Notes: generated by a model not told the origin, from the letters alone. Positions 11,274-32,705 are shown, counted from the first letter of the stretch. The stretch: 32,705 bases of DNA from a virus (IMGVR_UViG_3300021127_000024:1-32705), one strand, 5' to 3'. Program-made: numbers and translations.

Positions 11274-11318
11274 GGGCCCTCCTAAAGGCGATAGGTAGCA
11301 AACAATATGGTTATTGAA

Positions 11319-11367
11319 TGCGTAGTGCACACCAATGCCCGAACCAAGCATTGATGTACACTACGCA
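11319..11367 (-). promoter_or_regulatory. Long hairpin in the MoxR mRNA leader
   Basis: Positions 11319-11338 and 11348-11367 form a 20-pair stem with a 9-base loop. On the minus-strand RNA all 20 pairs form, two as G-U. On the plus strand the same two are C-A mismatches. This indicates that the hairpin is used in the minus transcript, about 45 bases before the MoxR start. It may be a terminator, an attenuator or a stability element. Confidence 0.6.
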
Positions 11368-12525: not shown

Positions 12526-14187
12526 CTAGAGCCAGACGGTGGAGTCGCTGGCGATTTGTTCGAAGTACACCGTGCTGTTGTGCTGAGGCACACCACGGGT
12601 GTTCGCCGACTCTTCGTCGTCGTCCTCGTAGTCGATGCCGTCGTCCAAGTCGCTGTTCTCCCAGTCGTTTTCCGGGTTCCAGTCGTCCCCGCTCACGTCC
12701 ACGAAGTCCGGCTTGCTGTGCCAGGCGTCCTGGATGAACGACTGGTCAGACATCCAGCCGTCGATGCCCCAGACCCCGTCTTCTGGCTCCGGTGCGAACC
12801 ACGGGTCCTCGCCTTGGATTTCCTTGTAGACCCAGGTGCCCGAGCGCATCTTGCGGCTCCTGAACCGGTAGTCCACGGTCTCGGTGATTTCCTTGTTGGT
12901 CTTCTTGCTCGTCCACTTGAAGGTGATTTGGTCCGCCACGTCCAGGTGGATTGCGCCTTGCTCGACCCACTCCCAGGTGAGGCTGGGACGCTGCACGCCG
13001 TCCGTGTCCTCCATGTCCTGGAGGTTCGGGATGACTGCTGGCGGTCGGGTCCACACCACGGGCTTCATTGGCACCCGCTGGGTGAAGACGTAGTTCGACT
13101 TCTCGCACTCGTGGACCGATTCGGTTGGGAACCAGATGCTGCAGTCCCGGCAGATGGTGCAGAGGGCCTTCATGGGCACTGCCTCGCCGTTGAGTCGTGC
13201 GACTGGCTTACGCTCCCAGTCCACCTGCTGCTCAAAGTCGGAGCGCCACCACTTGTCGGCTGTCTCCAGGATGCTGATGTCCCAGTCCGCTGGTGTGCGG
13301 TCGTACATCTTCAGCTGGTGGTTTGTGACTCCACCGCTGACTCCGAGCGTGGGACCGAATGCGGCCTTGATACGCTGCACCTCCGCCAAGCGGAAGTTCT
13401 CCTGCCAGTTGGTCATGCTGCCTCCTTGGGGCATGGGTTCGGGTTCGGGTGCGTTCCCTCCTGAGAACGGCTTGGGGTAGGAGCGAGTTGGGACACCCGC
13501 CTTGTTTGAGATGTCAAGCATCATTGCTGTGCCAGTCGATGGTGCGTTCGGGTCCGAGTAGAAGCCGATGACCAAGTGCGGCTTGCCCTCCTGGAGCATC
13601 TTGGTGTTGCGCAAGAACCCTGCGCGCTTGCCGTACTTGTCCCACTCAGCCGGGAACTCCTGGACCTGCTGGCCACGCTCACGTGCCCAGCGTCCTGCGA
13701 GTCCGTCTGCTCCACGTGCTGCTCCGTGGATGATTGTGACTGCGCCTGCCTCAGCAAGCAGTGCGTCCAAGACCTGGTTGAGCAACCCCCGGTCTGTGTA
13801 GTCACGGCTACCGCACACGATTACTTTCATGCTTGTCTCCTTGGTTCGAGCCACGGTGGGGGCTTCGGGAAGGGAGGCCCCACCGTGGCCATTGGCTAAC
13901 TGCAACAACACGTCTGCGTGGCATGCACGTGGCGCACACCAGCACACAAGGTCTTTGCCCTTGAGTGTTGGGATTGCTTCACGCACTCGCTGCGCTGATG
14001 GGGACGTGTTCACCCACTCCTTGTACTGCTCGATGACCTTGGCTCGGTCAGCCTCGGTCCGCATCGGGAAGGGGTTCCCGAAGAGTCCGCTGCTTTGCGG
14101 AGCAGCCGGGTTTGGCCTCCCCACGTAGACAGCGTTGGTCCAGTCGATGTTCCGACTCAAGCGGAGAACTCGTGGTTGATACTGCAT
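12526..14187 (-). CDS. Three-module ORF: DUF4326, SLOG/DUF2493 and zinc-finger region, with internal ribosome sites
   Basis: The open frame encodes 553 residues. Residues 1-100 are DUF4326: YVGRPNP, GNPFPM, and the KGKDLVCWCAPRACHADVLL signature with the Cys/His set. Residues 120-236 are a SLOG/DUF2493 domain: MKVIVCGSRDYTDRG, the HGAARGADGLAGRWA helix, FPAEWDKYGKRAGFLRN, and LVIGFYSD. Residues 258-553 are unfamiliar, with CTICRDCSIW plus a later HEC (zinc-finger-like) and an acidic DDGIDYEDDDEES tail. Met120 (13830) and Met258 (13416) each have a strong ribosome site in front, so three products or nested forms are likely. SLOG proteins handle nucleotide-type ligands; the third part is unknown. 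The gene overlaps the one before it by one base (TAATG) with AAGGAGGT upstream. Confidence 0.82.
   Translation of the reverse strand: MQYQPRVLRLSRNIDWTNAVYVGRPNPAAPQSSGLFGNPFPMRTEADRAKVIEQYKEWVNTSPSAQRVREAIPTLKGKDLVCWCAPRACHADVLLQLANGHGGASLPEAPTVARTKETSMKVIVCGSRDYTDRGLLNQVLDALLAEAGAVTIIHGAARGADGLAGRWARERGQQVQEFPAEWDKYGKRAGFLRNTKMLQEGKPHLVIGFYSDPNAPSTGTAMMLDISNKAGVPTRSYPKPFSGGNAPEPEPMPQGGSMTNWQENFRLAEVQRIKAAFGPTLGVSGGVTNHQLKMYDRTPADWDISILETADKWWRSDFEQQVDWERKPVARLNGEAVPMKALCTICRDCSIWFPTESVHECEKSNYVFTQRVPMKPVVWTRPPAVIPNLQDMEDTDGVQRPSLTWEWVEQGAIHLDVADQITFKWTSKKTNKEITETVDYRFRSRKMRSGTWVYKEIQGEDPWFAPEPEDGVWGIDGWMSDQSFIQDAWHSKPDFVDVSGDDWNPENDWENSDLDDGIDYEDDDEESANTRGVPQHNSTVYFEQIASDSTVWL
13421..13427 (-). 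promoter_or_regulatory. Internal ribosome-binding site before Met258
   Basis: AAGGAGG on the minus strand lies four bases before the in-frame ATG at 13416, inside the long ORF. It would start a separate 296-residue product holding only the zinc-finger and acidic part. The strength equals that of true starts nearby, such as the one at 14187. Confidence 0.65.
13837..13842 (-). promoter_or_regulatory. Internal ribosome-binding site before Met120
   Basis: AAGGAG on the minus strand lies six bases before the in-frame ATG at 13830, exactly where the SLOG domain begins (MKVIVCGSRDY). This suggests that the SLOG part was once, or still is, a gene of its own that has become continuous with the DUF4326 part. 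Confidence 0.65.
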
Positions 14188-16291: not shown

Positions 16292-16577
16292 CACCGGAAT
16301 GAAAAGTACGTCGTTCCAAGTTTGGGGTGCTACGTTCATCAGTGGCCTGGCTGCGGAGGTCTATGCCTTCTCCAGCCACCACATTCCCAGCGCATTCGCC
16401 GGCATTGCGCTTCAGGCAGTTGCGGGTCTTATTAAGACCTTCCATGACCACGGCCTCAAGGCCACAGAAATCAAAGCGGCTGCTGACGTTCAGGAGGCTT
16501 TTTACTACGCATTGCCCAAGGGTGCCCTTGTGCAGACTAGCCCTGGGCCTGCCCCGGTGGTGCCACCGGTGAGTTAA
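16281..16577 (+). CDS. Small hydrophobic protein before TerL (98 aa)
   Basis: The ATG at 16281 has GGAAGGAG about six bases upstream. Residues about 13-30 (VWGATFISGLAAEVYAFS) and 38-51 are moderately hydrophobic, followed by FHDHGLKATEI, an Ala-rich helix, and a Pro-rich end (GPAPVVPPVS). It could be a membrane protein of holin type or a small structural protein; the sequence does not decide. It overlaps the previous gene by 11 bases, and its stop shares one base with the TerL start (TAATG). Confidence 0.58.
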   Translation: MAINTGMKSTSFQVWGATFISGLAAEVYAFSSHHIPSAFAGIALQAVAGLIKTFHDHGLKATEIKAAADVQEAFYYALPKGALVQTSPGPAPVVPPVS

Positions 16578-18469
16578 TGGCTCAAACGCCAGAGCAAGTT
16601 GCAAAGTATTTCCAACTTCGTGCAGACGGGTGGAGTCAGGCAAAGGCGGCTGAAAAAGCTGGCTTTTCTGTCTCCACCGCTGCGCGTCTGGAGAAAAAGT
16701 CACAGGCTTCCCAAACAACCAATCGGGAAGAGCTGGCGGCTATCAAAGCAAATGCAAAGCTTGGCGGACCAAAGCGTTACGACCAGTTAAGTCCCGAGGC
16801 CCAAAAAGCCCATGATGACTTTGGTTATTTTCAGCGCCGTTACTTTGGACGCATTGCCACGCCGTGGCAGGTCGAAGCAGCAGAGCAGATTGTTAAGTAC
16901 CTAGAAACGCCTGACAAAGAGTACGTCGTTATCAATTGCCCGCCTGGTGCGGGAAAGACCACGACCTTCTCCCACGATATCCCCGTTTGGCTTACGTGCC
17001 GTAATCGTGCCATCCGTGGAATGATTGGCCACTCGGTGGCCAGAGAGGTAAAGAAAAACCTTGGACGCCTCAAGCGAACATTTGAATCGACTATCCCGTT
17101 TAAAGCAGACCCAGACGATATCGCCAAAGGACTCGCCGTGGACGCCGAATCCACTGTGGCCTTGGATTTCGGACGCTTCCGGCCCGTCGAAAAGGACGTG
17201 TGGAATCAAGAATCACTGTTGGTTATGCAATACGACGATGTCGGCACCACCGCAGAAAAGGAATACACCTGGCAGGCGTACGGTATCGACGCGGGTTTCA
17301 TCGGTACTCGTGTCGACTTTGTCATTTGGGACGACCTTGTTGACCCTTCTAAGCTCCGCACAGCGGAAGCAAAAGAAAAACTAGAAGAGTTCTACGACGA
17401 CGTTTGTGAAACACGACTAGAGCCGGGCGGTCTTTTGGTCCTCATGGGCCAGCGCATTTCGCCGGATGACCTTTACCGCTACAACCTTGAAAAGACAATG
17501 CCTCTTGATGACGAAGAGGAATTGCTTGAAACGTTGAGTGAAGCGGAAATTGAAGCAATGCGTACTCGCAAAAAGTACCATCACATTAAATTTAAAGCGC
17601 ACTACGAAGACCGGTGCAAGCTTGAAAACCACAAGCGCAACGGGCCGTACTACCCAGAAGGTTGTTTGCTTGACCCTCGTCGCTTGACGTGGCGTGATTT
17701 GTCCGCACTCATGGCAAACCGTGGGGAAAAGTTTCAAATTCTTTTCCAGCAAGAGGATGTTGAAATTGACCAGTTTGTCAAAGAAGAATGGATTTTTGGC
17801 GGCGGCGGGCACATGGGATGTGTCGACCGCAATAGAGATTTTTGGGAAATCCCAAAGGGCCTTGTCAAACACGAATGTATTGTTGTTGCCACTGCTGACC
17901 CCTCACCAACAATGTGGTGGGCCGTGGAGTTGTGGATTTACCACCCAGAGTCGGAACAACGGTTCCTTATTGGCATTGAGCGCCGCAAAATGGAAGCGCC
18001 GGAGTTCCTTGACTGGAACTATAGGGAATCCAAATTCACTGGCATTATGGAGGATTGGCAATCCCGAATGACTCAAATGGGTTGGCCTATTCAAGCGTGG
18101 GTTATTGAACACAACGCCGCTCAGCGATTCCTGATGCAGTACGACCACTTTCAACGCTGGCGCCAAAAATGGGGTGTAAAGGTAATCCCTCACTCAACAA
18201 ACACCAATAAAGCAGACCCTGAATACGGCGTATATACACTCGGTCCACATTATGAATATGGACGTGTTAGAATACCTTATACGGATTTGGCAAAAACAGA
18301 CGCCATCAAACTTATCTCCGAGGTTAAAAACTATCCCCACGGCAGAACGGATGACACCGTTATGGCCCAATGGTTTTTGGAGTGGAATCTTCCTTCACTA
18401 AAGCTGTTGGTGACGCGTGTCAACCTTAAGCCACAGAAACGGCCTACATGGCTGGTTGGAGTGAAATGA
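16577..18469 (+). CDS. terL: Terminase large subunit with N-terminal helix-turn-helix-like segment
   Basis: The 630-residue protein has Walker A PPGAGKTT (122-129) and Walker B FVIWDD (248-253), then a coupling segment VLMGQRISPDDLY. The nuclease domain has Asp441 in VATADPSP, Glu511 in WVIEHNAA and the Asp pair in RTDDTVMAQ near 598. The ATPase pumps DNA into the head and the nuclease cuts concatemers. Residues about 5-42 (QVAKYFQLRADGWSQAKAAE, then AGFSVSTAARLEK) look like a helix-turn-helix of the kind found in small terminase subunits. No separate small terminase is seen in this window, so the two functions may be joined here; that is inference. Confidence 0.93.
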   Translation: MAQTPEQVAKYFQLRADGWSQAKAAEKAGFSVSTAARLEKKSQASQTTNREELAAIKANAKLGGPKRYDQLSPEAQKAHDDFGYFQRRYFGRIATPWQVEAAEQIVKYLETPDKEYVVINCPPGAGKTTTFSHDIPVWLTCRNRAIRGMIGHSVAREVKKNLGRLKRTFESTIPFKADPDDIAKGLAVDAESTVALDFGRFRPVEKDVWNQESLLVMQYDDVGTTAEKEYTWQAYGIDAGFIGTRVDFVIWDDLVDPSKLRTAEAKEKLEEFYDDVCETRLEPGGLLVLMGQRISPDDLYRYNLEKTMPLDDEEELLETLSEAEIEAMRTRKKYHHIKFKAHYEDRCKLENHKRNGPYYPEGCLLDPRRLTWRDLSALMANRGEKFQILFQQEDVEIDQFVKEEWIFGGGGHMGCVDRNRDFWEIPKGLVKHECIVVATADPSPTMWWAVELWIYHPESEQRFLIGIERRKMEAPEFLDWNYRESKFTGIMEDWQSRMTQMGWPIQAWVIEHNAAQRFLMQYDHFQRWRQKWGVKVIPHSTNTNKADPEYGVYTLGPHYEYGRVRIPYTDLAKTDAIKLISEVKNYPHGRTDDTVMAQWFLEWNLPSLKLLVTRVNLKPQKRPTWLVGVK

Positions 18470-20406
18470 GTCTACCTGCTGGCAACCGTGAGGCTGCTGA
18501 AGCTATTCACAACTTGTACCTGCAGCGCAAGCGTCATTATCATAAGCACATTAGTCAAATGAACGAAATTCGCGCTGTGTACCACAACACAGTGAATCTT
18601 CCGTTGCCCGAGCTTGACAAACTTGAACGACCCGAAATCCCCAACCTTGTAGCACAAGGCATTGACCAAACGGCAATGCGTATTGCGTCCGTTTTGCCGG
18701 ACATTCAGTATCCTTCTATGCGCCCTGGTTTCCAGTGGGCCGACAACAAAGCGCACGATGCCCGCCTAGCCAACCTTGGTTGGTGGAAGATGAACCGCTA
18801 CGACATGAAATTGCCGCGTCGTGCGCGCCACCTCATTGCTTACGGCGTTTCACCTATCAGCATTTCGCCGGTCAGTTCCAACGTCAACGACCACCGCAAG
18901 ATTCCGCATTGGCGTGTGCGTAACCCTATGGGCACTTTCCCTGCCCCAATGGACGACCACGACGCAATTACGCCTACCGACTGCATCTTTTCGGACATGC
19001 GCTCGTATGAATGGCTAAAGAAGAATTATCCGGAGCAGGCGGCGGTTATTGAAAAACCCCAGAATGCTGCTGATTCTGATTTGTATTACGTGCTTGAGTA
19101 CGTCGATGAAGACGAGACGGCCACCATTGTGCTTGGCGCAAAGCGGGAAACCGAACACGTGCCGTTTGGCCAAGAGGCGCGCCAGGCCGGCGCCCCGCAC
19201 GCACTGCTCTCACGCGTGAAAAACCGTGCCGGTATTTGTCCGGTTGTGTTTCCCAAGCGTATTGCGCTGGACGGACTGCTTGGCCAGTTCGACTCTATGG
19301 TCGGCATGTACATGGCAAGTGCCCGTATTGCTTCACTTAACCGCATTGCCGTGGAACGTGACATCTTTAAAGACGAATGGATTATGGGCAACGTGCCCAA
19401 CCAGGTGCCGGAGATTATCCAGCAGGCCGATGGCCGTATGGGCCAAATTGGTATTATCCACAACGGCCAGATCCAGGCACTCGGTACGCCGCCAGGCCCA
19501 CTTACCCAGCAAGTTTCGGATGCACTTGAGCGTGCGCAGCGCATGACCGCTGGCATCCCCGCAGAACTCGGCGGGGAGTCCGGTTCCAACATCAGAACTG
19601 CCCGCCGTGGTGCAGCCGTCTTGGGTAGCGCAATTGATGGAATTATCCAAGAGGGACAAATTGTTCTTGCCAGCTCCATGGAAGCTGAAAACCGCATTGC
19701 CGTTGCAATTGCCAAGGCGTACTTTGGTAACCGAAAGGCTGTGTTTTTTGGCGAGCGGTACGACGGCAAAGAAGCTGAACACACGGATTACGTCGTCAAG
19801 GATGTTTTTGAGCGAGATGACTGCGAAGTTAAGTACGCAATCCCTGGGACTGACCTGCCAGGTCTTATCGTGGAAATTGGGCAGATGATTGGTGACGGTA
19901 CCCTTTCGGTCACCACCGGACGAGAGATGAACCCATTAATTACTGACCCAACGCTTGAGGCTGACCGTGTTGAGATTGAGGGTCTACGCCGGGCTTTGCT
20001 CCAGTCTATGGAGACTGGAGCACAGAACGGCACAGTAGACCCGCACCAAATTGCGATGGTCGCCAAAATGAAATTTGAAAAGCACATCCCAATCGAGCAA
20101 GCCGTCATTGCAATCCACGAAGAAGAACAAAAAAAGCAAGCCGAAGCACAGCAAGCGCAGCAGCAGCAGGCCGGCATGCCAACGCCAGAGATGCAATCTG
20201 GTTTGGGTTCGCCCATGTCAAACGCCGGCCCTGGCATGATGCAGCCGCCTCCGGCTGTGCCCGAGCAACCGCAAGGTCAAATGAACCTGGAACAAATGCT
20301 TGCCGGCATTGGTGGCGCAAGCAAAGTTCCCCCAGCAGAACAACAGATGGGTGGTGGCCAAATGGGACCCGCAGCCGGAATGATGGCAGGTATGCCAGGT
20401 GCCTAG
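18466..20406 (+). CDS. Portal protein
   Basis: I start at the ATG overlapping the TerL stop (ATGA), preceded by GGAG; an ATG at 18448 would add six residues. The 646-residue protein has the size, position and helical core expected of a portal. It begins with a long helical region (NLYLQRKRHYHKHISQMNE), then a central body with LLGQFDSMVGMYMASARIAS and a stem-like part near RMTAGIPAELGGESGSNIRTA. The last 110 residues are a Gln/Met/Pro/Gly-rich low-complexity tail. The portal forms the 12-fold ring for DNA passage and head-tail joining. No protease is fused to it. Confidence 0.88.
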   Translation: MSLPAGNREAAEAIHNLYLQRKRHYHKHISQMNEIRAVYHNTVNLPLPELDKLERPEIPNLVAQGIDQTAMRIASVLPDIQYPSMRPGFQWADNKAHDARLANLGWWKMNRYDMKLPRRARHLIAYGVSPISISPVSSNVNDHRKIPHWRVRNPMGTFPAPMDDHDAITPTDCIFSDMRSYEWLKKNYPEQAAVIEKPQNAADSDLYYVLEYVDEDETATIVLGAKRETEHVPFGQEARQAGAPHALLSRVKNRAGICPVVFPKRIALDGLLGQFDSMVGMYMASARIASLNRIAVERDIFKDEWIMGNVPNQVPEIIQQADGRMGQIGIIHNGQIQALGTPPGPLTQQVSDALERAQRMTAGIPAELGGESGSNIRTARRGAAVLGSAIDGIIQEGQIVLASSMEAENRIAVAIAKAYFGNRKAVFFGERYDGKEAEHTDYVVKDVFERDDCEVKYAIPGTDLPGLIVEIGQMIGDGTLSVTTGREMNPLITDPTLEADRVEIEGLRRALLQSMETGAQNGTVDPHQIAMVAKMKFEKHIPIEQAVIAIHEEEQKKQAEAQQAQQQQAGMPTPEMQSGLGSPMSNAGPGMMQPPPAVPEQPQGQMNLEQMLAGIGGASKVPPAEQQMGGGQMGPAAGMMAGMPGA

Positions 20407-20848
20407 AGCCAGACAGCAAGGTGCTGTTGGCAAGGCATACAGCAACCGTACAGACCTCAACAAAGCCAGCACGCCTCGTACGGTCCCTGGCCAAGAATAC
20501 GGCATGCAAACCGCACAGATGGCAGGAATGGCCAAAGCCCCTGTTGCCCAAAGCGGAGCGCCGTCTATGACGCCTAACAGCGCAGCACCATCTGCACCTG
20601 CGCAACCACCCGCCATGCCGCCCCGTCCGTCCGCTATGCCAGGACAACTTGGCTGGATGGACCCTGGGCACCCAAACACCAATATGGCTGACCCTGGGTA
20701 CCAACCACCCAACTTTTACTCAATGCGAGTTAACGGCGTTGCCGATTTGCTTGACCAAATTGCACAAACGCCAGGAGCACCAAAAGAAGTACAGAAAATG
20801 GCAATTGTTGCCAGAGGACTAGCAAACAGGAGCAACAGTAATGCCTGA
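20399..20848 (+). CDS. Small Pro/Ala-rich protein following the portal (149 aa)
   Basis: It starts at a GTG eight bases inside the portal gene. The N-terminus has VGKAYSNRTDLNKAS and RTVPGQEYG, a pattern I associate with a conserved small protein after the portal in many actinophages. The middle is Pro/Ala/Met-rich, probably disordered. The last 45 residues form a helical tail (VADLLDQIAQTPGAPKEVQK). It may be a head-associated, scaffolding or connector-type protein, but the sequence alone does not show which. Confidence 0.65.
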   Translation: MPRARQQGAVGKAYSNRTDLNKASTPRTVPGQEYGMQTAQMAGMAKAPVAQSGAPSMTPNSAAPSAPAQPPAMPPRPSAMPGQLGWMDPGHPNTNMADPGYQPPNFYSMRVNGVADLLDQIAQTPGAPKEVQKMAIVARGLANRSNSNA

Positions 20849-23800
20849 GCCGGGACAGCCTGGATTTAACCCGCAAGCAGCACAACAAGCAGCTTTGCCC
20901 CCAGTTGAAGCACAAGCACCGGTTATGCACTTTACTGACCGACTTGCTGACGTTGCCAAAATTGCTCCAAGTGCCCCGCCACACGTCGCTGTTGGCCTAG
21001 CAAGTCTGCCTAACCATGAAGAAGCTGCGCAGACTTACCACATGGTTCACACAATTGCTAACAGCCAGCCAACGTCTGTTGCACAGGTCAATGACTATTT
21101 TGGTGTCAAACCACCAACTAGCCACAATTGGAACCCGTTGGAATTTGGTCTTCATTTTGTTGAAGGGGTTGGTAAAGGACTGTGGGGTATTGTGCCTGGT
21201 ACTTTGCACTGGGCCGAAAGCAGCGCAAAATCAATTGGCAAAGACGTTACGCAAGCGTGGCACGACCCATTTGGTGAAAATTTCACTGGTTTCTTTAAAC
21301 AAGTTGGTCACGACCTTTGGAACGATGCCAACGCTGGATTTGACCTTATCCCTCACATCTACCGCTACACCATTGAATACGCACACAAGTACGGTTGGGG
21401 CGCAGCTCTTGGCCACCTAACTGGTTCAATTATTCCTGCGCTTATCCCATTTGCTGGTGAAGCTATAACGGGAGCTCGTTTTGCTGGCTTGGCAGCGGAA
21501 ACCGCAGACGTTGGCGCTACAACCGCTGACGCTGGCGCTACGGCCACGGAAGGTGCTTCTGCTGAAGAAACAGCTGCTAGCGCAGCCAAAGGGGCGGAAA
21601 CCGGCCCATCCATTACAACCGGTGCTTCTGCTGAAGATTTGATTAAGTCTGGTGAAGAAATTCAAGCTTCACGTTTGGCCCCTCTTAAAGAGGGTCTGCC
21701 AGAAGACATGCAGCGCGTCATAGAATCAATGCAAAAAACGCTTCGATTTGCTGGCAAGGTAGCAAGTCCAATTATCAAACCACTCAGAATTATGCAACGT
21801 GGTTTGATGAGCCCTACGTCTGTTGGCGCTCAAATGGCTACCGGACTCAGCGCAACGGGAACTCAAGCCGACAGGGCACTTTGGGAAAAAGCTTCCAATG
21901 GCGCCACTTGGGTTGACCCCATGATGGGCCGGCATGCAACTCTTGGTCAATCAATCTTTGGTTTGATTACCGGTCTTGGTGGTGGAGAGCCTGGCCAAGA
22001 GTGGCAAGGGCCTCAGTGGCTGCATGACCTTACTTCACCACTTCAAGGTTTGATATCAGGTGCTATCGATTTTGACACTCAGTTGGTTGCACCTGACCCG
22101 TTTGGTGCGGTTGGCGACGTGTGGAAGATGGCACACAGCGCAGAAGGCGCACCTGGTTTTATGAACCGCATCTTTAAGGGTCGCGGCATTGAGACTGACG
22201 AAAAAGTCCAAGACCTTTTTAACCGGTCAAAAGCATTCCGTAAAACTTGCGCACGCATTGCCAAGATGAATATCAAGCAAATTGGTGAAACGCTAAAAAT
22301 TAGTGGTACTACTATCTCCCCGTTGTTGGCCAAGCAACTTGCTGAAGCAAAGACGGCAGACGACGTGTTAGCTGTTTTCCGCAACGCAGCTGGTAGCAAC
22401 GACCTTATGAGTGCTACCGCACCAAGCCTTGGTTTTTACACCCGTTTCAAAATGAATTACCGAGAGGTTGTTGACAAGTTCAACAAGCTTGATGAAATGG
22501 CACAAAAAGAAGGTCGCATTCCTCTGACCGAAAGGCAGCACCACCGCATCCAAATGCGCCATGCGCTTTTGCACATGAATGCTGGCCGTCCATTTTGGCT
22601 TGACTCAAAGGCGCTCAAAGGTGCAGTACGTACTTTTGAAGTAAACGGGGATGACCCCAATGCAATCAAGGCTATCATTCGCATTTTCCGTCAGGCCGGC
22701 CACAACGAGCAAGAGCTCAACAACATCTACCACGACCTAAACGAAGCAGCGCTTAAAGGCGACCCGACTCTTTTTAAAAACGTTGCGCTAAAAGCTTATT
22801 TTGACATTATGTCAACGAACTTGCTTGTGCGTTGCGGAGAAATTGAAGACCCGCTCTGGGAGTTGTACATGAACCAGGGTTACATCACCATGCAAGAACA
22901 GATGCAAGCAATTTCGCTTGGTGAGGACAATACGTACACTAACTGGAATATCCCAGGCCAACCAAACAAATACGACGTTATGGTCGACCCACGGGAAACT
23001 GGCGACTACAGCAACCTGCATACTGCCGGCGAAAACGAAAATCAGCTCAACGCGTTGCGCCTTATGGACCCGCGAGACTTTAAGTCTTTTGTTCGCAAGT
23101 TTGCTTCCATTATTGAAGACCCCAACCCAACGCTTGATTTTCTTAATGCTAAAACAAACGTGCAGTCTTTTTACAGTTTGCGTCAAGCATGCGAACAAGC
23201 AATTATCCACGCCAGTGATGACATTTACAACGCTAAGCAATTCCAAGAATTTCTTGACACCCATGCCAAGCGAGGCGTAGCTGTTGGCGAAGGTCGCGAT
23301 GCCAACAAAGACTTTGTCTTTGAAAACGCATCCAAAATGTTTAAAGACCTTCGACAAGAACATGGCGAAGTGCGTGCGTTTAGCTACATGATTAATTATT
23401 TGCAGGACACCCGTGACGCTATTGAAACTCGTCTTGAAGAAGCCAGGCATCTTGTAGCCAGCATGGCCCCTGGGGAGCGCAGTTCAGTTCACCGTGCTTT
23501 GATTGACGAATTGCAAACGTCAAGCTTTGGTGTCGAAACAATCATTAGCGAAATGGCCATGAAGCTTGGCAGGGTCCCGCAATGGCAAGAGTATTTTGAC
23601 AAAGTTGTTGGATTCCGTGGAAGCGCAGAAGACATCAGGGCTAGGGGTTACAAGCTTGCTGATGAAAAAGTAGCCGCATTCAACAAAATTTCATACGAAG
23701 ATTTGGTCCGCCATCGCGAAGCTGTTGCGACTATGACTAAAAAAGAAAAAGCCGAATTGGATTACGAACGTCGTCGGTTCAACAATGCAATGGACAAGTA

Positions 23801-26800
23801 CAGGGACGACCAAAGTAAAGGCATCAAATCAGACAAGCCCAAACTTAAAGTGCCCCTTGCGCTGCAAGAAAAAGGTTACATCTTTGGGATTGTTGACAAA
23901 AAAGCAGCAGTGCCGGATTACGACGTTATTGCTCGTACCGCTTCTCGTACCATTGCTGAAGGCGAGCACTACGTCAAAGCACGCAGAGAATTTGAAGCCA
24001 AATTCAAGCAAATCTGTGGCATGGTCAAATCGCCCTCCGGATGGCGCACCAGGTCACAAATTGCCATTGACAGCGTTAACGACGTAGTCAACAACGTTTT
24101 CTTTAAAACCCTTGCCTTGTCTTCGCAAGCATGGGCGTGGCACGTTGGTATTTCCGAAGCAGTGCTCAACGCTTTTCGAAAAGGCATTGGCATTGACTTT
24201 GCCAACCGCTTTGCTGTGTCCTATCGCAAGAGCGTTATGAAATACAGTGCTTTTAACGAAGGGGCTCTTGGCGAAAACTGGATTCGCAACCACGTTGGTG
24301 GCATGATGATGGGCATTCGTGCAGAACTTGTACGTTTTCTTATGGGCACCGAGCGTGGTAACCGGTTGCTGGACAACGCCCTTGACCTTGCGTTGATTTT
24401 CCCCAACGGCATTCACCCTGCACTTTCTGCAGCCATTGGTGGCACCGACGCGCTTGTTGACATGCACCGTGCTGGCGTTGACTTGGGCCACATGGTGTTG
24501 GACAACGCTTACCTTGCCAACAAATTTAAAACCTACACGCATAACGACCCTGCGCTTGCAATGATGTTGCGCCACTACATTGGCCAGTTCATGCACACCG
24601 AACAACACAAATTCATTGCAAAGCAAGCAAAAAAATACATTGAAGAAGCACAGACAGAGTTTGCTGAAAAAAGATTTCCAACTAGTGGCCTAAGTGGTCC
24701 CGTTGACAAAGAAACCATTCGCACGCAGGAAGAACGTCGTGAAGCTTTGTTCAACGAACTTCGTGAAATTGGCGACAAGCAAAGAGAAATTGCTGAAGAC
24801 CCTAACCTTACTGATGAAGAAAAACAACGAGAGCATCAACGGCTTGAGGATGCAAAACACAAAATTCTTATTGACGCTGGCAAAGAACAGCGGATAACTG
24901 AAAACACTTGGAAGATTGCTCAGTACTATGAAACGGCTCGTAACGAAGCAAGGCGTAATTCACGCACCGGCAATTTCTTTCTTGAGTCCAAGCTTCAAGA
25001 ACTTACCGACGCTGAGCAACGTGCCATTGAGTTTGAGTCAAACCAGATTTCCGATTACAAATGGCAAGAAATTCGCAGCAAACTTGAAAAAGACATGGTC
25101 GATTGGCTGCACGCACAGCCCAAAGCATGGCGTGACCAGTTCAGCGCAAGCCGACGCATCAGTATGGATGCCAAAGAAAAGAACGACCTTATCCCAGACG
25201 TGAACCATCACATTACGCCAATTGAAGACTGGGCCCGGCGTTCTGTACGTACAAACATGGCCACCTGGTTGGGCGTTGCTGCTCCCGACAACTTTGAAAA
25301 AGCTTGCTACCACCCTTGGATTCTTGACCAAATTATTAACCCAGACAAATTGGCAACCATTAAAGAATTTGCAGATTACCGCAAAGCTGCTGACAAGTGG
25401 GGCCAGTTTGTTGGCACCGGGCGTGAAAGCGCCTTCCCCAGCCACATCATGGGACCAGAACTTGCCAACGCTACCGCCATGCGCAAAATGGGTTCCAAGA
25501 TTCAAGCAGTTGCTGAGTACGGACACAAGAAATTCTTTGGCCCGTTCATTGACTGGATTAGTCGTGACCCCAACTTTTTGTGGGAATACCACTCGGAGAT
25601 GGAATTGCTTCGTGGCCGCATCATTGGCAACGCCATCAAACAAGAAGAACTTAGTAACCACATTGCCATGAGCGTTGAAGAGTTGATGTCCAAAATGAGC
25701 GAGCATCAGCGTGAAACGTACGACAGGGCCAAAGAGTTCTTCTTAGCGCACCCTGACCACGCTGTGCGTATGTACGTGCCGCCAACGGAGCACGAAACCA
25801 GCATCATGCATCCGTTTGACTATGCGCAATATTTGCACATGAAACGGTACCCGTTTGCTACGGCAAAGTCTGAAATCCCACCGTTGCTTGACGAAGAGTT
25901 TAAGAATCCAGAAAACTGGACGCATGCCGTCATGGAGGATTCTGCACGCATAAACGGGAAGTGGGACTTCCGTAGCATTTTCCCGCATATGCATGAAGAG
26001 GACGTTGCAGCAGCCAACGAATACGGGCAGCGTTACTTTGAACATGCAAACTCTTACGACGCTTCGTTTGCAGAGCAGCATGATTTCTTGGCAAGCCAAC
26101 CAGCTGCTCTTCAAGATTTCCATTACGAGCACGGACGGTTTAACCCTATGACCGTGCCCGAGGGCATGGGAGATACGCACGTACGTGGAGTTATCGATGA
26201 CGTACGCAATGCTGTAGCTGGCAACCATGCGCTTCTTTACGCTGTTGACCGTCGTGGGCATGTAACTGCCACGATTGCTTTTGCCTACAGCGACGGCACC
26301 AAGATTGACAAAAACTTCTTTAGCAAAGAAATGCCGTACGCAGACTTTAAAGCAAAAGTTGACCAAGCAATGGAGCAAAACCCATCATGGGTCATTGACT
26401 TGGTTATGGGGCGTTTGAGAAATGTGCCTGCATTGCGAGAAGATGCAATGCAGGATTATTTGGACAGGGGCGCTAGAGACTACCCTACAAATTCTAATTA
26501 CATTTACAACCCACAAAAAGGACACACCTTAGAGGAATTTTTGGACGTCGTTAGAAGAGACATTATGGACTCTGAAAAAACTGGCGTTACTCCTTTAATT
26601 GGTGGACAAAACTTTAACGAAGCTAGTGATGCATTTAGAACAGTCCAAAACTTTTTTGGTGCTCTTGATAAAGCTTTGCTTGAAGACGTAAAATTTTTTA
26701 TGCCCGATGCATTGGCTGGCGCAGAAAGAATACGTCTTGGTGCGTATTACCATAAAACAAGTGCTGTAAGCTTGTATCGTTTCATTGGTTTTCGTGGAAC

Positions 26801-29800
26801 TTTGGAACCAACAATTTTTCACGAAATTTGGCACAGTATGTCCAACCACATGTCCGATGGTGCTTTAAAGGCACTAAATCACGAATTGGAACTTGCACGT
26901 CAAGAATTTCTTAACCAATATGAACACCTTGGCATTGGTCAACTGCTTAAAGCCGATGATTACAATTGGCAAGATTTTTACTTTAGGCAAGACGAAGTAC
27001 AAGATGCATATTTGTCTACTTCTCACGGCTACACATCAATGATGGCTGACCCGGATGCTGCGCTTGATGAAATGATGAAGCATTGGGCATCAATAACAAA
27101 TCCAGATTTCCCCAATGAAAAAGATTGGGTGCAATTTGTTGGCGATCAGCGTGGTAGCGGAATAATTGAAGGTACCCATATTCAACACCGTCGTCCGCAT
27201 TATCGACTTGTAAACCTTGATGAATTTATTGCTGAACAAATGACTGACCGCACACTTGCGGCTTTTATTAAAGAAGGTTTGTTGCCAGCAACGTATGCGC
27301 AAGGCATGCAGGACCCAATTATTAAAGAAGTCTTTAACGACCTTGGCCGTACGTTGATGACAAAAAGTTTTACTCGCAACGAGCTGGCCCAGCACATTCG
27401 TGCTTCGTTGAAACTTGACGCAGCACGCAAACAATACGGTCGTGACATTACTCACGAAGAAATTGATGCTGTCATCAAAAAATACTTTGCTCTTGATGCT
27501 AACGCAGGCCCCGGTTTTGGGGGACAAATGGACAAAAAAGCTTCCAAATCTGGTGCAGAAGTTTTTGTTTCAGGAACGGAACGATATCGCTACCGTGCAA
27601 ACAGCGGCAACGCCCTAAGCGACCTTGCTACTTCTGAACGGTTTATGTCTACCAAGATGCATTCTTCTTGGGAGCCAACACCTTCGCCTGCGGAATATCA
27701 CATGCCAGATGAAATGGTAGAAGAATTCCAAAAGCGTTACAACGCTGCAACTACTGCCGAAGAGCGAAGAGAAGTTATTGCAGACAAACGCGAGGCCGAA
27801 AAGAAAGGTCTTCAAGAGGCCAAGACGATGGTTGTTAAACAAAACCGTCGTAGCGCAATTGCATTTGGTACTGAAAACGTTCCACGCGGTGTTGATGAAG
27901 AAGGCCGTCCATTAAAAGACGTTGACGTTCGTAGTTGGGTTGACAACGAAGTGGCTGGCATGAAGACTCAAGTTGGTCAAGAGTTCATGCGTTATTTCAA
28001 CGACATGGTTGCAAAGCGTGCAATTCAAACTGCCAAAGTTGCATATGGCGAAGGCCCACTAAGCGAAATCTTTTCTGATTTCTGGCGGAAAAACTATTCA
28101 ACTGGTTCAGTTGACAACAACCCACTTGAACAAAGTCTTCGTAAAGACCCAGGTGTGTACGGAATTGTTACCAAGCCAGGTCAAAGCAACAAGAAAGCTT
28201 GGGACCGTACAGTTTGGGTTGGCAGGCCCAAGGGTTCTGTGCCTGACGGTGTCATTGGAGCGCGAGGTGAACTTGTGTTGCCATTTAAGTTTTCAAAAAA
28301 CTATGCAGACATGGTTCCTTCACCAGAAATGTTTGATGAACTGGAAAAAGAAACGGAAAAAATTAAGCACAATTTCAAACATTGGTTGTTGAACTCTAAT
28401 GAAAGTAACGCAGAAAAAATGCGAGCACTATTGCCACAAATCAAAGGCAAAAACATTGCTATGAGCGACCATGACCTTCATGCGCAATTTACGTCTTCTC
28501 AACGCATTCAGGCTGAAGTGTTGATGGAAGTTGCTAATGCGCTTGAAGAAGCTGCGCCTGTTGGTTCTACAACTCGTGCAGCAATTGCTTCCAAATGGCA
28601 GTTGCCAACACCTGTTCGAAAATCCGCCAGAGAGCGTCTATGGAACGTTTTAACATCTCCTACGTCAAACGACGAAGATGTGTTTGCTGCGCCTGCCGAC
28701 AGGATGTTACAGCAACGGCGTAGACTGCATATGAGTGGTTCTAACGGATTCTCACAAGGCTTCCCGTTTGCCCACACGCATGCACACATGCCTGACGTGC
28801 GAGTGCTTAGCACTAACTCACGTGCACTTACGCCTGGTGCTGTTGATGCGTTGAACTACGAGTTAGCTCGTCGTGCGCAAATCCAAGGTGTCAACGTTGA
28901 GTCAACGGAAAACCTGCCAAACACCACTGGTTACTACAGAACTGTTGGTACCAACGGTACCGATTACTCAGTCCGTTCAACGGTTGGTACGCAAGCAGAA
29001 CGTCAGTACGACAACCATGCAACGTGGTTTAAGCACACGCTGACGCACGATTTTAGCGTGGACCCACGTAACCCATCGGCTTCTGTGTACGCTGCTGCGC
29101 TGCGCTACAACAAAGAACGTTCGCACGCTATGAGCGAGTTTGGTGACTTGACTGGCGAGCAGGCACGGTTGATTGCAACTATTCGTGCCGCTGAACGCAT
29201 GTTGGGTTTTGTCCACAACCCCCTTGAAAAAATGGCACTTGAAAACAGCCTGCGTGTTGCAGCACCGTTCTACTTTGCGCAAAACCAGTCATGGCGTCGT
29301 GCCATGCGTGTATTTGCAACTGACCCTGGCGCATTTGAGCGTTACCTTAAAGCCAACTTGAAGATGGCTAACTTTGCAAGCGAGCATGACAACAACGGTA
29401 TTTCTATGGTTGCAATGCCTGGAAGTCAGTTGATGATGATGGGCTTGCTGAAGTTGATGCACGGCAACAACCTGCCGTTTGAAATGACTGGTGACCTTTC
29501 CAGCATGCGCACAATGCTGCTTGGTGGCTTTGGTAGTCAAGACAACGGTTCGTTGTTTAGGGACTTGTTGCCGCAGTTGGGCCCAGTCGCCACCGTGCCA
29601 ACCAAAGTTGCTGCTGGTGGAATGGTTGCGCTTGAGGATTGGATGAAACTTCCAAAGTCTTGGGCTAAGAGGACCATTGGTGTTGAAAACCAAATCCTTG
29701 GTCCGTTCTCTGCCAACAAACCTTTCTGGGTTGATTTGTTGCCAAGCACCCTGGTGCGTAACGTGCTGGAAGGGTTCTTGTCGTACACCAACATCCATAG

Positions 29801-31076
29801 CGCCGGCACAACGCTTGGTAGCTCGTACGTGTCTACACGTAATCAAGTTATGGCTGAGCTTGCTCAAAGCATGTTTGATGAGATTTCCCAAAGATTGCTT
29901 AACCAGGGTGGAAGCGGTCAAAGTGCTGAATACTGGCGTTTGTTAAAATCTGACCCTAACACTGCGCCACGGTTCTTTTCTGAAGTAATGACGCAGTTTG
30001 CAACCAAGTTTACTGACGTTCACGAAATGCAAGTGTTGATGGACCGAGCCAACAACATGACGGCAGCCATGTGGGTTATTAAAACCCTTGGTTCGTTTAC
30101 GTCACCGCTTTCAATATCACTTGAAAAAACGACCTACAAATTTACTGAAATTATGATGAAATACGTCAACAAATACGGTGCAACTGAAGGTTATGCAAAA
30201 TACGCAAAGGACTACCCGTACCACACGTTGGACACGGTGTTTATGAGTACTAGCCCTTCTGGCGATTCATATCCAGAAACAAAACCTGCATATGATTTCA
30301 TCAATCAACACCAAGATTTTACTAACAAGTACAAAAGCATTGCGGCGTATTTGATTGACCGGCCAAAAGATGCGCCGTTGTACCATCCTGCGTATTCAAT
30401 GGAACAGCAGATGGGCCTTCGTGCTCGTGCGCAACTTGAAAGCATGAGCAACTGGAACAACCTTGGTATTTACGAAACGCTTGCTATTGATGCCGGGAAT
30501 TCTTGGTACTACAACGACTTGTTGTGGAAAGTGCAAGTTGCACAAGGCGTTAATCCAATGAACCCAAGTGATCCCAACGTGGACCAAGCAACCATTTACA
30601 AACTTGAACAAGCCACTGGCGTACAATGGAACTGTGCTCCAAAAAGCAATGCACAAGCAACTAATGCATTGAACAATTGGGAAAAAGACCAAATCAGTCA
30701 GTACTCACGGTTTCGCAACGGCATTTGGGGCAAGTATCACGCATACAACCAACAGCAAGAAAATGCTGTCAACCAATTGACTGCGTTCCACAAATTGTAT
30801 GCTGACAAAAACTACGTCAGCATTTACGAGACCATGAACGAACAACAGCAAATGATTTTGAACAACGTCAAAACTTTGATTAACTCATACAACTACATTG
30901 TTCAAACCCACAAACAGATGCAACAAGCAGGGCAGGGTACAAGTCAGCTCGATACTGATTGGTACAATTATTGTATTAATACTGCACTGGAAACGCCATC
31001 GTTGGCTCCAGTAATCAATTCCTTGTTTAAGCATCTTCCTATGAGCGGAGTGAACAATGACACCCCAGTTGCCTGA
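20841..31076 (+). CDS. Giant multidomain virion protein (3411 aa) with metallopeptidase-like and DUF4326-like segments
   Basis: One uninterrupted frame fills 10.2 kb. The N-terminus is Pro/Ala-rich; residues about 190-270 combine a hydrophobic region (GSIIPALIPFAGEAITGARF) with Ala/Thr/Glu repeats. Most of the rest is long, charged, helical protein. A HEIWH zinc motif at 1994-1998 is followed by DEFIAEQMTD at about 2127-2136, giving an HExxH...E metallopeptidase pattern. Residues 2455-2566 resemble DUF4326 without its cysteines. LENSLRVAAPFYFAQNQSW near residue 2800 recalls conserved parts of very large phage structural proteins. It follows the portal and precedes virion-like genes, so an internal head or ejected protein is likely. 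I found no RNA polymerase motifs. It starts eight bases inside the previous gene. Confidence 0.85.
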   Translation: MPEPGQPGFNPQAAQQAALPPVEAQAPVMHFTDRLADVAKIAPSAPPHVAVGLASLPNHEEAAQTYHMVHTIANSQPTSVAQVNDYFGVKPPTSHNWNPLEFGLHFVEGVGKGLWGIVPGTLHWAESSAKSIGKDVTQAWHDPFGENFTGFFKQVGHDLWNDANAGFDLIPHIYRYTIEYAHKYGWGAALGHLTGSIIPALIPFAGEAITGARFAGLAAETADVGATTADAGATATEGASAEETAASAAKGAETGPSITTGASAEDLIKSGEEIQASRLAPLKEGLPEDMQRVIESMQKTLRFAGKVASPIIKPLRIMQRGLMSPTSVGAQMATGLSATGTQADRALWEKASNGATWVDPMMGRHATLGQSIFGLITGLGGGEPGQEWQGPQWLHDLTSPLQGLISGAIDFDTQLVAPDPFGAVGDVWKMAHSAEGAPGFMNRIFKGRGIETDEKVQDLFNRSKAFRKTCARIAKMNIKQIGETLKISGTTISPLLAKQLAEAKTADDVLAVFRNAAGSNDLMSATAPSLGFYTRFKMNYREVVDKFNKLDEMAQKEGRIPLTERQHHRIQMRHALLHMNAGRPFWLDSKALKGAVRTFEVNGDDPNAIKAIIRIFRQAGHNEQELNNIYHDLNEAALKGDPTLFKNVALKAYFDIMSTNLLVRCGEIEDPLWELYMNQGYITMQEQMQAISLGEDNTYTNWNIPGQPNKYDVMVDPRETGDYSNLHTAGENENQLNALRLMDPRDFKSFVRKFASIIEDPNPTLDFLNAKTNVQSFYSLRQACEQAIIHASDDIYNAKQFQEFLDTHAKRGVAVGEGRDANKDFVFENASKMFKDLRQEHGEVRAFSYMINYLQDTRDAIETRLEEARHLVASMAPGERSSVHRALIDELQTSSFGVETIISEMAMKLGRVPQWQEYFDKVVGFRGSAEDIRARGYKLADEKVAAFNKISYEDLVRHREAVATMTKKEKAELDYERRRFNNAMDKYRDDQSKGIKSDKPKLKVPLALQEKGYIFGIVDKKAAVPDYDVIARTASRTIAEGEHYVKARREFEAKFKQICGMVKSPSGWRTRSQIAIDSVNDVVNNVFFKTLALSSQAWAWHVGISEAVLNAFRKGIGIDFANRFAVSYRKSVMKYSAFNEGALGENWIRNHVGGMMMGIRAELVRFLMGTERGNRLLDNALDLALIFPNGIHPALSAAIGGTDALVDMHRAGVDLGHMVLDNAYLANKFKTYTHNDPALAMMLRHYIGQFMHTEQHKFIAKQAKKYIEEAQTEFAEKRFPTSGLSGPVDKETIRTQEERREALFNELREIGDKQREIAEDPNLTDEEKQREHQRLEDAKHKILIDAGKEQRITENTWKIAQYYETARNEARRNSRTGNFFLESKLQELTDAEQRAIEFESNQISDYKWQEIRSKLEKDMVDWLHAQPKAWRDQFSASRRISMDAKEKNDLIPDVNHHITPIEDWARRSVRTNMATWLGVAAPDNFEKACYHPWILDQIINPDKLATIKEFADYRKAADKWGQFVGTGRESAFPSHIMGPELANATAMRKMGSKIQAVAEYGHKKFFGPFIDWISRDPNFLWEYHSEMELLRGRIIGNAIKQEELSNHIAMSVEELMSKMSEHQRETYDRAKEFFLAHPDHAVRMYVPPTEHETSIMHPFDYAQYLHMKRYPFATAKSEIPPLLDEEFKNPENWTHAVMEDSARINGKWDFRSIFPHMHEEDVAAANEYGQRYFEHANSYDASFAEQHDFLASQPAALQDFHYEHGRFNPMTVPEGMGDTHVRGVIDDVRNAVAGNHALLYAVDRRGHVTATIAFAYSDGTKIDKNFFSKEMPYADFKAKVDQAMEQNPSWVIDLVMGRLRNVPALREDAMQDYLDRGARDYPTNSNYIYNPQKGHTLEEFLDVVRRDIMDSEKTGVTPLIGGQNFNEASDAFRTVQNFFGALDKALLEDVKFFMPDALAGAERIRLGAYYHKTSAVSLYRFIGFRGTLEPTIFHEIWHSMSNHMSDGALKALNHELELARQEFLNQYEHLGIGQLLKADDYNWQDFYFRQDEVQDAYLSTSHGYTSMMADPDAALDEMMKHWASITNPDFPNEKDWVQFVGDQRGSGIIEGTHIQHRRPHYRLVNLDEFIAEQMTDRTLAAFIKEGLLPATYAQGMQDPIIKEVFNDLGRTLMTKSFTRNELAQHIRASLKLDAARKQYGRDITHEEIDAVIKKYFALDANAGPGFGGQMDKKASKSGAEVFVSGTERYRYRANSGNALSDLATSERFMSTKMHSSWEPTPSPAEYHMPDEMVEEFQKRYNAATTAEERREVIADKREAEKKGLQEAKTMVVKQNRRSAIAFGTENVPRGVDEEGRPLKDVDVRSWVDNEVAGMKTQVGQEFMRYFNDMVAKRAIQTAKVAYGEGPLSEIFSDFWRKNYSTGSVDNNPLEQSLRKDPGVYGIVTKPGQSNKKAWDRTVWVGRPKGSVPDGVIGARGELVLPFKFSKNYADMVPSPEMFDELEKETEKIKHNFKHWLLNSNESNAEKMRALLPQIKGKNIAMSDHDLHAQFTSSQRIQAEVLMEVANALEEAAPVGSTTRAAIASKWQLPTPVRKSARERLWNVLTSPTSNDEDVFAAPADRMLQQRRRLHMSGSNGFSQGFPFAHTHAHMPDVRVLSTNSRALTPGAVDALNYELARRAQIQGVNVESTENLPNTTGYYRTVGTNGTDYSVRSTVGTQAERQYDNHATWFKHTLTHDFSVDPRNPSASVYAAALRYNKERSHAMSEFGDLTGEQARLIATIRAAERMLGFVHNPLEKMALENSLRVAAPFYFAQNQSWRRAMRVFATDPGAFERYLKANLKMANFASEHDNNGISMVAMPGSQLMMMGLLKLMHGNNLPFEMTGDLSSMRTMLLGGFGSQDNGSLFRDLLPQLGPVATVPTKVAAGGMVALEDWMKLPKSWAKRTIGVENQILGPFSANKPFWVDLLPSTLVRNVLEGFLSYTNIHSAGTTLGSSYVSTRNQVMAELAQSMFDEISQRLLNQGGSGQSAEYWRLLKSDPNTAPRFFSEVMTQFATKFTDVHEMQVLMDRANNMTAAMWVIKTLGSFTSPLSISLEKTTYKFTEIMMKYVNKYGATEGYAKYAKDYPYHTLDTVFMSTSPSGDSYPETKPAYDFINQHQDFTNKYKSIAAYLIDRPKDAPLYHPAYSMEQQMGLRARAQLESMSNWNNLGIYETLAIDAGNSWYYNDLLWKVQVAQGVNPMNPSDPNVDQATIYKLEQATGVQWNCAPKSNAQATNALNNWEKDQISQYSRFRNGIWGKYHAYNQQQENAVNQLTAFHKLYADKNYVSIYETMNEQQQMILNNVKTLINSYNYIVQTHKQMQQAGQGTSQLDTDWYNYCINTALETPSLAPVINSLFKHLPMSGVNNDTPVA

Positions 31077-31647
31077 AACTGAACACGTCGAAAATCCAAG
31101 CGGCGGTCCTGTGACCGGTGCTGAAACCATGCCGCAAGGTGGTGAAGAAAAACCAGCAGTTACTGCTGGCGCTGAGCAACGTGTTCATTACAACGATGTA
31201 TTAAAACAAATTGCGCAATATCACGTGCCGTATGACCATTCGCACCTTGCAGAGATGGTTGACGAAAATTGGACCATTGACAAAGCTAGTGCCGACGCTT
31301 TTGAAGACCATTACAAAAATATGGCGTTGGGGTTGTATCCAACGTTTGCTCCGCAAATTAAAGCAGGCATTAAACCCAACGCGTTGTTTGACCCGTACCG
31401 TCAAGTAGCAAAGCAAGTGCTACATGACCCAAACATTGAACCAGATTGGCTTGGTCAAGCGCATTGGAGCGCCGCCCTTGATGGCAACATTGACCCCAAA
31501 ACTCAAATGAAAACTCCAATGAGTTTGGGGCAGTGGAAAGAATATGTAATGACTGAACCAAAGTTTGGTTACGCAGCCACGGACGAAGGCCGTGCAAAAA
31601 TTGAGAAAGCCACGCAAGCGTGGCGTGAGATTGTAGGTAAGGCATAG
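31057..31647 (+). CDS. Hypothetical structural-module protein (196 aa)
   Basis: The ATG has GGAGTGAAC upstream and overlaps the end of the giant gene by 20 bases. The first 40 residues are Pro/Gly/Glu-rich and look disordered. The rest is helical, with aromatic clusters (FEDHYKNMALGLYPTFAPQI; FDPYRQVAKQV; LGQWKEYVMTEPKFGYA). The final segment (TDEGRAKIEKATQAWREIVGK) resembles C-terminal tails of large actinophage internal virion proteins. A role together with the giant protein is likely from position, but no family is certain. Confidence 0.68.
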   Translation: MTPQLPETEHVENPSGGPVTGAETMPQGGEEKPAVTAGAEQRVHYNDVLKQIAQYHVPYDHSHLAEMVDENWTIDKASADAFEDHYKNMALGLYPTFAPQIKAGIKPNALFDPYRQVAKQVLHDPNIEPDWLGQAHWSAALDGNIDPKTQMKTPMSLGQWKEYVMTEPKFGYAATDEGRAKIEKATQAWREIVGKA

Positions 31648-31649
31648 TT

Positions 31650-32705
31650 ATGGCTACACCCCCAGCGTTGCAACCGTCAGTTGATGCAGCAATTAAATAC
31701 ATGCAGAATCCTTCTGCGCAAACTTCTCCAGCAGTAAAACGTTTTGCAATTTTGTTGCAGCAGCAAGTTGTTTCAGCAATTAGTCAAGGTAAAGACCCTG
31801 CTTTGCTTACACAAATTAAAGGCGAATTGGCAGCGCCTGCTGTTGCTCTTTTCTGGGACAAAATTGCACAAAAAGGTTTAAAGGTCCAACTGCTTTCTAA
31901 TAATTTTGTTCCTGACCAATCAGTTCCTGAATCAAAAACAGGAATTTTTTGGCCAAGTTATGCCAGCTGGATGGGGCCAACCAATGAATTAACAAACGGT
32001 TCAGAAATTTTGAAACAAGTCGCAAGTCTTAAAACTGGTGGAGATTTTTTTAGTCAAATCAAACCAATTTATAATTCAGCAGCTAATGATTTTTTAGCTT
32101 GGTATAACCAAGGAAACAATTCGCAAACTTACAGCAGCAACCAAACTTTAATTGTTGCCGCAACAAACGTTTTGAATCAAGGTGTTACTGGCGGTACAGA
32201 AGCCACTGGCCAAGCTGGTAGTGGACTTCTTGGCATTAATGGAATTACTGGAATTGGTGGTGGTATAGGTAATTACAAAGCATCGACTTCATATGCTTGG
32301 AATCTTGGCGTTCCTGCAAGCGTTGCGTTAATTACTATTGGTGGCAAAACTTACAACCTTAACGCAATTACTCTTGCTGACAATATTAATGCTAACGAAT
32401 TAATTAAAGGCATCTACCTCGCTGCAGGTTCTGGTGGCAACAGCGCTTTGAAATATTTGCAAAGCACGTATCCAAGTTTAGTGCCCAAAGTTTCTGCAAA
32501 CGCAAGCGACACTACCAAACAAAATGATTTGTATAAATCTATGCACAATTTGTTGGACACCTATATTACTACTCAATATAATTCTAGCCAAAACTACCAA
32601 GTTATTGGTAGCGGTTCAAACGCAATTATTACCATGACGCCAATGGCTGGCGGTAGAAACAATGGGCATGGTTCAATTCCAGGTACTATTGATTTTGCTA
32701 CAACT
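31650..32705 (+). CDS. Virion-like protein, cut by the window end (partial, at least 352 aa)
   Basis: A frame opens at the ATG two bases after the previous stop (weak ribosome site, GTAAGG) and stays open to the last base. The first 150 residues are helical (SAQTSPAVKRFAILLQQQVV, and a Trp-rich FWPSYASWMGPTNEL). From residue about 165 it is rich in Gly, Asn, Thr and Ile (GLLGINGITGIGGGIGNYK). Later parts alternate helices and strands. The Asn/Thr/Gly-rich style and low GC resemble the partial gene at the left edge. A structural role is likely from its place; no family is recognised. Confidence 0.68.
   Translation, partial: MATPPALQPSVDAAIKYMQNPSAQTSPAVKRFAILLQQQVVSAISQGKDPALLTQIKGELAAPAVALFWDKIAQKGLKVQLLSNNFVPDQSVPESKTGIFWPSYASWMGPTNELTNGSEILKQVASLKTGGDFFSQIKPIYNSAANDFLAWYNQGNNSQTYSSNQTLIVAATNVLNQGVTGGTEATGQAGSGLLGINGITGIGGGIGNYKASTSYAWNLGVPASVALITIGGKTYNLNAITLADNINANELIKGIYLAAGSGGNSALKYLQSTYPSLVPKVSANASDTTKQNDLYKSMHNLLDTYITTQYNSSQNYQVIGSGSNAIITMTPMAGGRNNGHGSIPGTIDFATT

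Follow-up and report, generated by a model that had tools for sequence, protein, structure and literature searches.

A modular 3411-residue protein, putatively ejected, encoded behind the portal gene of a probable actinobacterial podovirus

The giant protein and its family

IMGVR_UViG_3300021127_000024:1-32705 is a single virus record 32,705 bases long, the whole of which (the window) was analyzed here. It carries at 20841..31076 (+) an open reading frame (ORF) for a giant protein of 3411 residues, which starts with ATG and, as the initial annotation had described, contains no internal stop over its 3411 codons. The last 3280 bases of the window recur with 1 mismatch in the IMG/VR contig L002/L041 (relatives are referred to by such labels), which then extends past the window end; the recurring part includes the last 1.65 kb of the giant gene. 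Because its 3′ end recurs in this way and because 48 distinct complete homologues exist, the frame is not a chance frame. Here we describe this giant, its family and the exchangeable parts of its chain, together with an interpretation of its role.

The giant is encoded within a run of overlapping genes. The terminase large subunit (16577..18469 (+); phrog_38, E 1.2e-40) is followed by the portal protein (18448..20406 (+); phrog_104, E 3.4e-11), a 149-residue protein (20399..20848 (+)), the giant and a 196-residue protein that overlaps the end of the giant (31057..31647 (+); phrog_34303, unknown function, E 6.6e-12). The giant had been placed directly after the portal; it does lie close behind it, but the gene of the 149-residue protein intervenes, overlapping each neighbor by 8 bases. 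This small protein is unassigned in function, has no match in PHROGs and shows 59% identity over 49 residues to the nearest relative. The continuation in L041 encodes a 736-residue and a 157-residue protein, a major head protein (phrog_1357, E 1.4e-61) and a collagen-like tail fibre, and the giant therefore sits between portal and major capsid.

Comparison of the whole giant with Pfam, PHROGs and PDB yielded nothing useful, and a tblastn search of 50,697 phage records yielded no match. A search with the terminase, in contrast, retrieved 35 related viral contigs, and a homologous giant, recognizable as separate blocks, was present in all 20 of the terminase-sharing contigs tested. A profile of the C-terminal domain (alignment A1) gave matches in 108 viral stretches; we retained 80 of these, and removal of near-duplicates left 48 distinct complete giants of 1369-3599 residues. 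The same profile also matched three contigs of metagenome-assembled genomes (MAGs), two of them labelled Acidimicrobiaceae.

A common framework was delimited with a hidden Markov model (HMM) built from 12 members of about 2030-2240 residues, together with pairwise blastp. Its N-terminal and middle part corresponds in the window to 21144..25646 (+) (residues 102-1602), where positions h122-1353 of the backbone HMM match p102-1603 and blastp finds matching blocks. Its C-terminal domain corresponds to 29115..31073 (+) (residues 2759-3411; alignments A1 and A5) and is found in nearly all homologues; this domain of about 600 residues forms the chain end in nearly all of the 48 complete giants (L143 is atypical). 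By HMM and blastp, the window giant consists of this framework plus one large insert and lesser expansions in the N-terminal half. As judged from these alignments, the framework is common to dozens of uncultured phages, and its C-terminal domain occurs also in Streptomyces podophages. A hydrophobic N-terminal region, which the initial annotation had attributed to the protein, is weak in the window giant, in which the Kyte-Doolittle mean stays below 1.4 in every 19-residue segment; a segment at or above this value is present in the N-terminal ~480 residues of roughly 20 of the 48 homologues.

The insert of the window and the cargo of its relatives

The large insert lies at 25647..29114 (+) (residues ~1603-2758; 1159 residues in the backbone HMM map). 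It is missing from short homologues, and in one of these (L054) the residues equivalent to 1602 and 2759 of the window giant adjoin in blastp. The insert contains a zincin metallopeptidase-like domain at 26553..27266 (+) (residues 1905-2142), recognized by phmmer, profile match and alignment. Within it, an HEIWH motif (26820..26834 (+), residues 1994-1998) would provide zinc ligands and the catalytic Glu, and a DEFIAE motif (27219..27236 (+), residues 2127-2132) would form a helix that bears the third zinc ligand. The H, E and H of HEIWH and the D, E, A and E of DEFIAE are invariant over 22 aligned sequences; by this alignment the window zincin retains its predicted metal-binding and catalytic residues.

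Used alone in phmmer, the zincin piece of the window finds L074 (E 1.8e-7), L141 (3e-5) and L085 (1e-4). The match of the window to the zincin profile (E 6e-50) is not independent, because that profile includes the window sequence; the phmmer matches are the independent evidence. Comparison of the profile with PDB gave nothing convincing. The HExxH motifs of L103, L094 and L096 were considered as the same zincin and rejected, since the zincin HMM does not match them. L141, a framework member with the zincin, stems from a MAG contig labelled Legionella, which might indicate either mis-binning or a broader host range.

The same insert carries a diverged DUF4326-like stretch at 28203..28460 (+) (residues 2455-2540; PF14216, E 8.3e-4). 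Compared by blastp with the intact DUF4326 encoded by gene 12526-14187, it shows 22% identity over 134 residues with composition correction off, and it has lost the CWC...CH pattern of the intact copy. With the zincin, this weaker stretch bears out the initial annotation, in which at least two segments of the giant have recognizable but unusual motifs. DUF4326 has been proposed to process phosphates of ADP-ribose derivatives (PMC9503650). The gene with the intact copy (12526-14187 (-)) fuses DUF4326 (1.3e-21) to a YspA/YpsA-like SLOG domain (1.1e-21), a combination like the reported NAD/ADP-ribose type of DUF4326-SLOG fusion (PMC9503650). No recognizable domain was found in other parts of the window insert, and its pieces 1603-1860, 2251-2480 and 2401-2758 had no relatives among the ORFs compared.

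Inserts of ~190 residues or more occur in 14 of the 48 giants, and the largest giants differ chiefly through insertions at five or more points of the common framework. One and the same point may hold different cargo: the nearest relative of the window, L042 (terminase 80% identical), has an insert of 896 residues where the window has its own, with an ADP-ribosyltransferase (ART) domain (PF03496, ADPrib_exo_Tox, E 4e-12), and none of the pieces of the window insert matched it. Conversely, the same cargo occupies different points: the zincin of the window maps to h1342-1353, those of L101 and L074 to h928-947, and that of L085 comes after h789. Further cargo comprises ADPrib_exo_Tox in L065 (1e-13), a PI3/PI4-kinase-like domain in L047 (E 3e-7, above the cut-off) and in L051 (9e-5, below it), and a weakly ART-like insert, also below the cut-off, in L046. 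L101 combines NADAR (2e-25), two copies of DUF4326 (4e-32) and the zincin in one chain. In a pattern scan, D.D.D motifs were found in a few homologues and none in the window giant. Inserts of 396-657 residues in the giants L053:5422-13317 (-), L072, L094 and L118, for which Pfam yielded no convincing family, are candidate effector domains.

The giant also diverges much faster than terminase, portal or capsid. Identities for terminase, portal, capsid and the C-terminal domain of the giant, respectively, are 80, 70, 74 and 33% between the window and L042, 76, 72, 74 and 30% between L047 and L051, and 79, 78, 79 and 34% between L051 and L046; in closer pairs among L043, L046, L049 and L050 the C-terminal domain is 47-98% identical.

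Known systems, probable role and alternatives

A scan with the zincin alignment returned 85 viral stretches, in which the zincin lies mostly within another kind of large ORF. All four scanned ORFs of this other type matched phrog_6651, annotated as 'internal virion protein' (E 5e-17 to 6e-63). They come from uncultured, mostly marine phages, and one such zincin-bearing protein finds proteins of cyanophages, roseophages and pelagiphages by tblastn; a search for the zincin among cultured phages gave no match. The zincin family of the window is thus present in uncultured marine members of the T7-type internal virion proteins, and by these matches it is found in ejection-type proteins belonging to two lineages whose frameworks differ. 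Since the zincin is shared with internal virion proteins, the giant may be one as well, and this is the strongest indirect evidence on its location. The zincin lies within proteins of 1466-2613 residues that match internal virion proteins at L172:2206-10047, L146:7517-12055, L173:7615-13515 and L183:2311-6711.

Among cultured phages, the counterpart of the giant is gp09 of Streptomyces podophages (Beephvirinae; YP_009836128.1 of Immanuel3, 1648 residues, 'hypothetical protein'), which is encoded in the same gene order, with terminase and portal before it and the capsid after it. The two C-terminal domains are homologous (hhalign 96.8, E 2.8e-10 over 495 columns; hmmsearch 2e-6), and a control comparison of the C-terminal profile with another Immanuel3 protein gave an hhalign probability of 0.1. 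In both homologous domain and gene position the giant agrees with the gp09 family, which is present in 29 records; gp09, however, is half as long, has no recognized cargo insert and is only weakly alignable in its N-terminal part.

Phage polyvalent proteins, for which zincins, ARTs and a late-gene position have been reported (Iyer et al. 2017, PMC5512222), offer the other comparison. Like these, the window giant is large, is encoded by a late gene alongside a portal-terminase system (between portal and major head protein), and has a zincin next to other domains; HEIWH and DEFIAE correspond to the HEXXH and the Glu in a later helix that mark the zincin class of polyvalent proteins. In its relatives, ARTs, kinase-like domains and further domains of effector type occupy disparate places. 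Two or more disparate domains within one chain, as expected of a polyvalent protein, are present in L101; in the window the zincin is clear and the second domain, DUF4326-like, lies below the cut-off. Unlike known polyvalent proteins, the giant has a defined common framework, a fixed C-terminal domain and identifiable insertion points, and LPD, ArdC-N, DarA and MuF domains were not matched in it at the thresholds used. Polyvalent proteins are already known, whereas the framework itself is matched by no family in Pfam or PHROGs.

For a virion-associated giant in actinobacterial podophages, the closest experimental precedent is provided by gp27 of Microbacterium phage Burro, reported to be virion-associated (PMC7302621), and the giants of cluster EK (more than 4400 residues). 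There too the giant gene adjoins that of the portal, although it precedes the portal, whereas the window giant follows it. No homology of these giants to the framework and C-terminal profiles was detected (hhalign probability at most 0.9).

We consider it probable that the giant is a polyvalent protein carried inside the virion and ejected from it, with effector slots whose contents can be swapped, and that it is made by a podovirus of a probable actinobacterial host. Sequence comparison supports a modular framework, insert exchange, intact zincin motifs, a late-gene position and fast divergence. The initial annotation had likewise favored an ejected or polyvalent protein, and the exchangeable enzyme-domain inserts, the zincin held in common with internal virion proteins and the late-gene place point the same way; packaging and ejection are inferred. 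The giant would be packaged in the head and would leave through the portal with the first DNA, with the C-terminal domain as packaging anchor, the remaining framework as the translocating part and the middle slots holding effectors. The zincin, as a putative protease, might cleave the giant itself and so free neighboring domains, or its target might be a host protein; any activity of the DUF4326-like stretch would be directed at ADP-ribose-type molecules. With cargo swaps at permissive points, the phage could retain the delivery framework and yet renew its arms against host defences.

Several points weigh against this interpretation. Most of the 48 giants are without a recognized enzyme, and such an enzyme is therefore not needed for the function of the framework. 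The DUF4326-like match, at 15.1 bits, falls under the curated 25-bit cut-off. In contrast to the shared zincin, no homology was seen between the framework and T7-type internal virion proteins (hhalign probability 0.2 against the C-terminal parts of 11 phrog_6651-type proteins).

The giant might be an ejected channel or pilot protein of purely structural function, whose inserts are inert bulk or decayed domains on a permissive framework. The many homologues without a recognized enzyme, the loss of the CWC...CH pattern in the window and the length of only ~1640 residues of the cultured gp09, without a large insert, fit this idea, but the zincin has kept its catalytic and metal-binding residues in 22 diverse sequences, and in relatives the scores of ART, NADAR and DUF4326 cargo exceed the curated cut-offs by a wide margin; we regard it as decidedly improbable. 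An assembly protease, trimming the giant or capsid parts before packaging instead of being injected as an effector, is also unlikely, though less so. The zincin-bearing DdrB of phage P1 is indeed processed before packaging (PMC5512222), but of the 48 complete giants only those of the window, L101, L074 and L085 are matched by the zincin profile, so that assembly of the framework does not depend on the zincin, which moreover occupies different insert points.

Two further identities have very little to recommend them. Coliphage N4 ejects a giant virion RNA polymerase (gp50, ~3500 residues) of similar size, in which an HExxH subdomain likewise comes before a large C-terminal domain that is mostly helical (PMC12633501), and the window giant could be a polymerase of this type diverged beyond sequence recognition. 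As in the initial annotation, no polymerase domain was detected, and no sequence similarity to gp50 was found: at E 1 there was neither an RNA_pol match in Pfam nor a match in PDB, both weak tests for a divergent polymerase, and PF00940 was unmatched in the window and nine related records, again a weak test, as control genomes were unmatched too. Homologues of ~1500-1650 residues, in addition, leave little space for a polymerase beside the framework blocks; we give this identity scant credence. A tape measure protein of a long-tailed phage, suggested by the great length and the position among virion genes, is scarcely credible at all. A match to such a protein had been named beforehand as grounds for abandoning the ejected-protein reading, and none was seen: hhalign gave a probability of 0.1 for the C-terminal profile against the one tape measure compared, that of a Glutamicibacter phage, and no tail tube or tail chaperone was recognized among the scanned proteins of the window and L041. 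The terminase matches among cultured phages, moreover, are nearly all to Streptomyces phages of the Immanuel3 group, which we take to be podoviruses.

If the giant is indeed an ejected polyvalent protein, short-tailed phages of little-studied, probably actinobacterial hosts would possess an injected protein that is re-armed rapidly, and host defences would be hinted at by the inserts, with ART, NADAR and DUF4326 all indicating ADP-ribose chemistry. The question of how a head accommodates chains thousands of residues long, and how these traverse a short tail, would be touched on as well. Function can be tested on this framework by comparing members with and without an insert; the cultured Streptomyces podophages, with their still 'hypothetical' gp09, offer a laboratory model. 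More tentatively, and with doubts that outweigh our confidence, we suggest a dedicated family of ejected effector-delivery scaffolds in actinobacterial podoviruses, in which at least five permissive points would exchange zincin, ART, kinase-like, NADAR and DUF4326 domains. Some of these domains would be shared with ejected proteins of unrelated T7-like marine phages, so that different lineages would take injected weapons from one common pool, and the zincin would free its neighbors by cutting the chain inside the cell.

Host and neighboring genes

The host is probably an actinobacterium, because a gene for a WhiB transcription factor is present (4461-4805 (-); PF02467, 2.2e-12), two of the MAG contigs are labelled Acidimicrobiaceae and the cultured relatives infect Streptomyces.

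Two neighbors of the giant diverge at its pace, the 196-residue protein (31057-31647) with 34% and the 736-residue protein (L041:2225-4435) with 28% identity in the nearest relative, whereas the 157-residue protein (68%) and the capsid (~71% in this comparison) are slower to diverge. The former two are possible partners of the giant in an ejection set. The ejection set of T7 comprises proteins of 196, 747 and 1318 residues (PMC8954989), a likeness in size that is suggestive only.

The GC content is 0.40 at the window end (31650-32705), compared with 0.52 in terminase and portal and 0.46-0.49 in the giant. Elsewhere in the window, at 9055-11351 (-), an AAA_5 ATPase (10566-11351) is encoded beside a 504-residue protein with an HEMMH motif (phrog_33218), an arrangement that recalls MoxR/VWA-type pairs.

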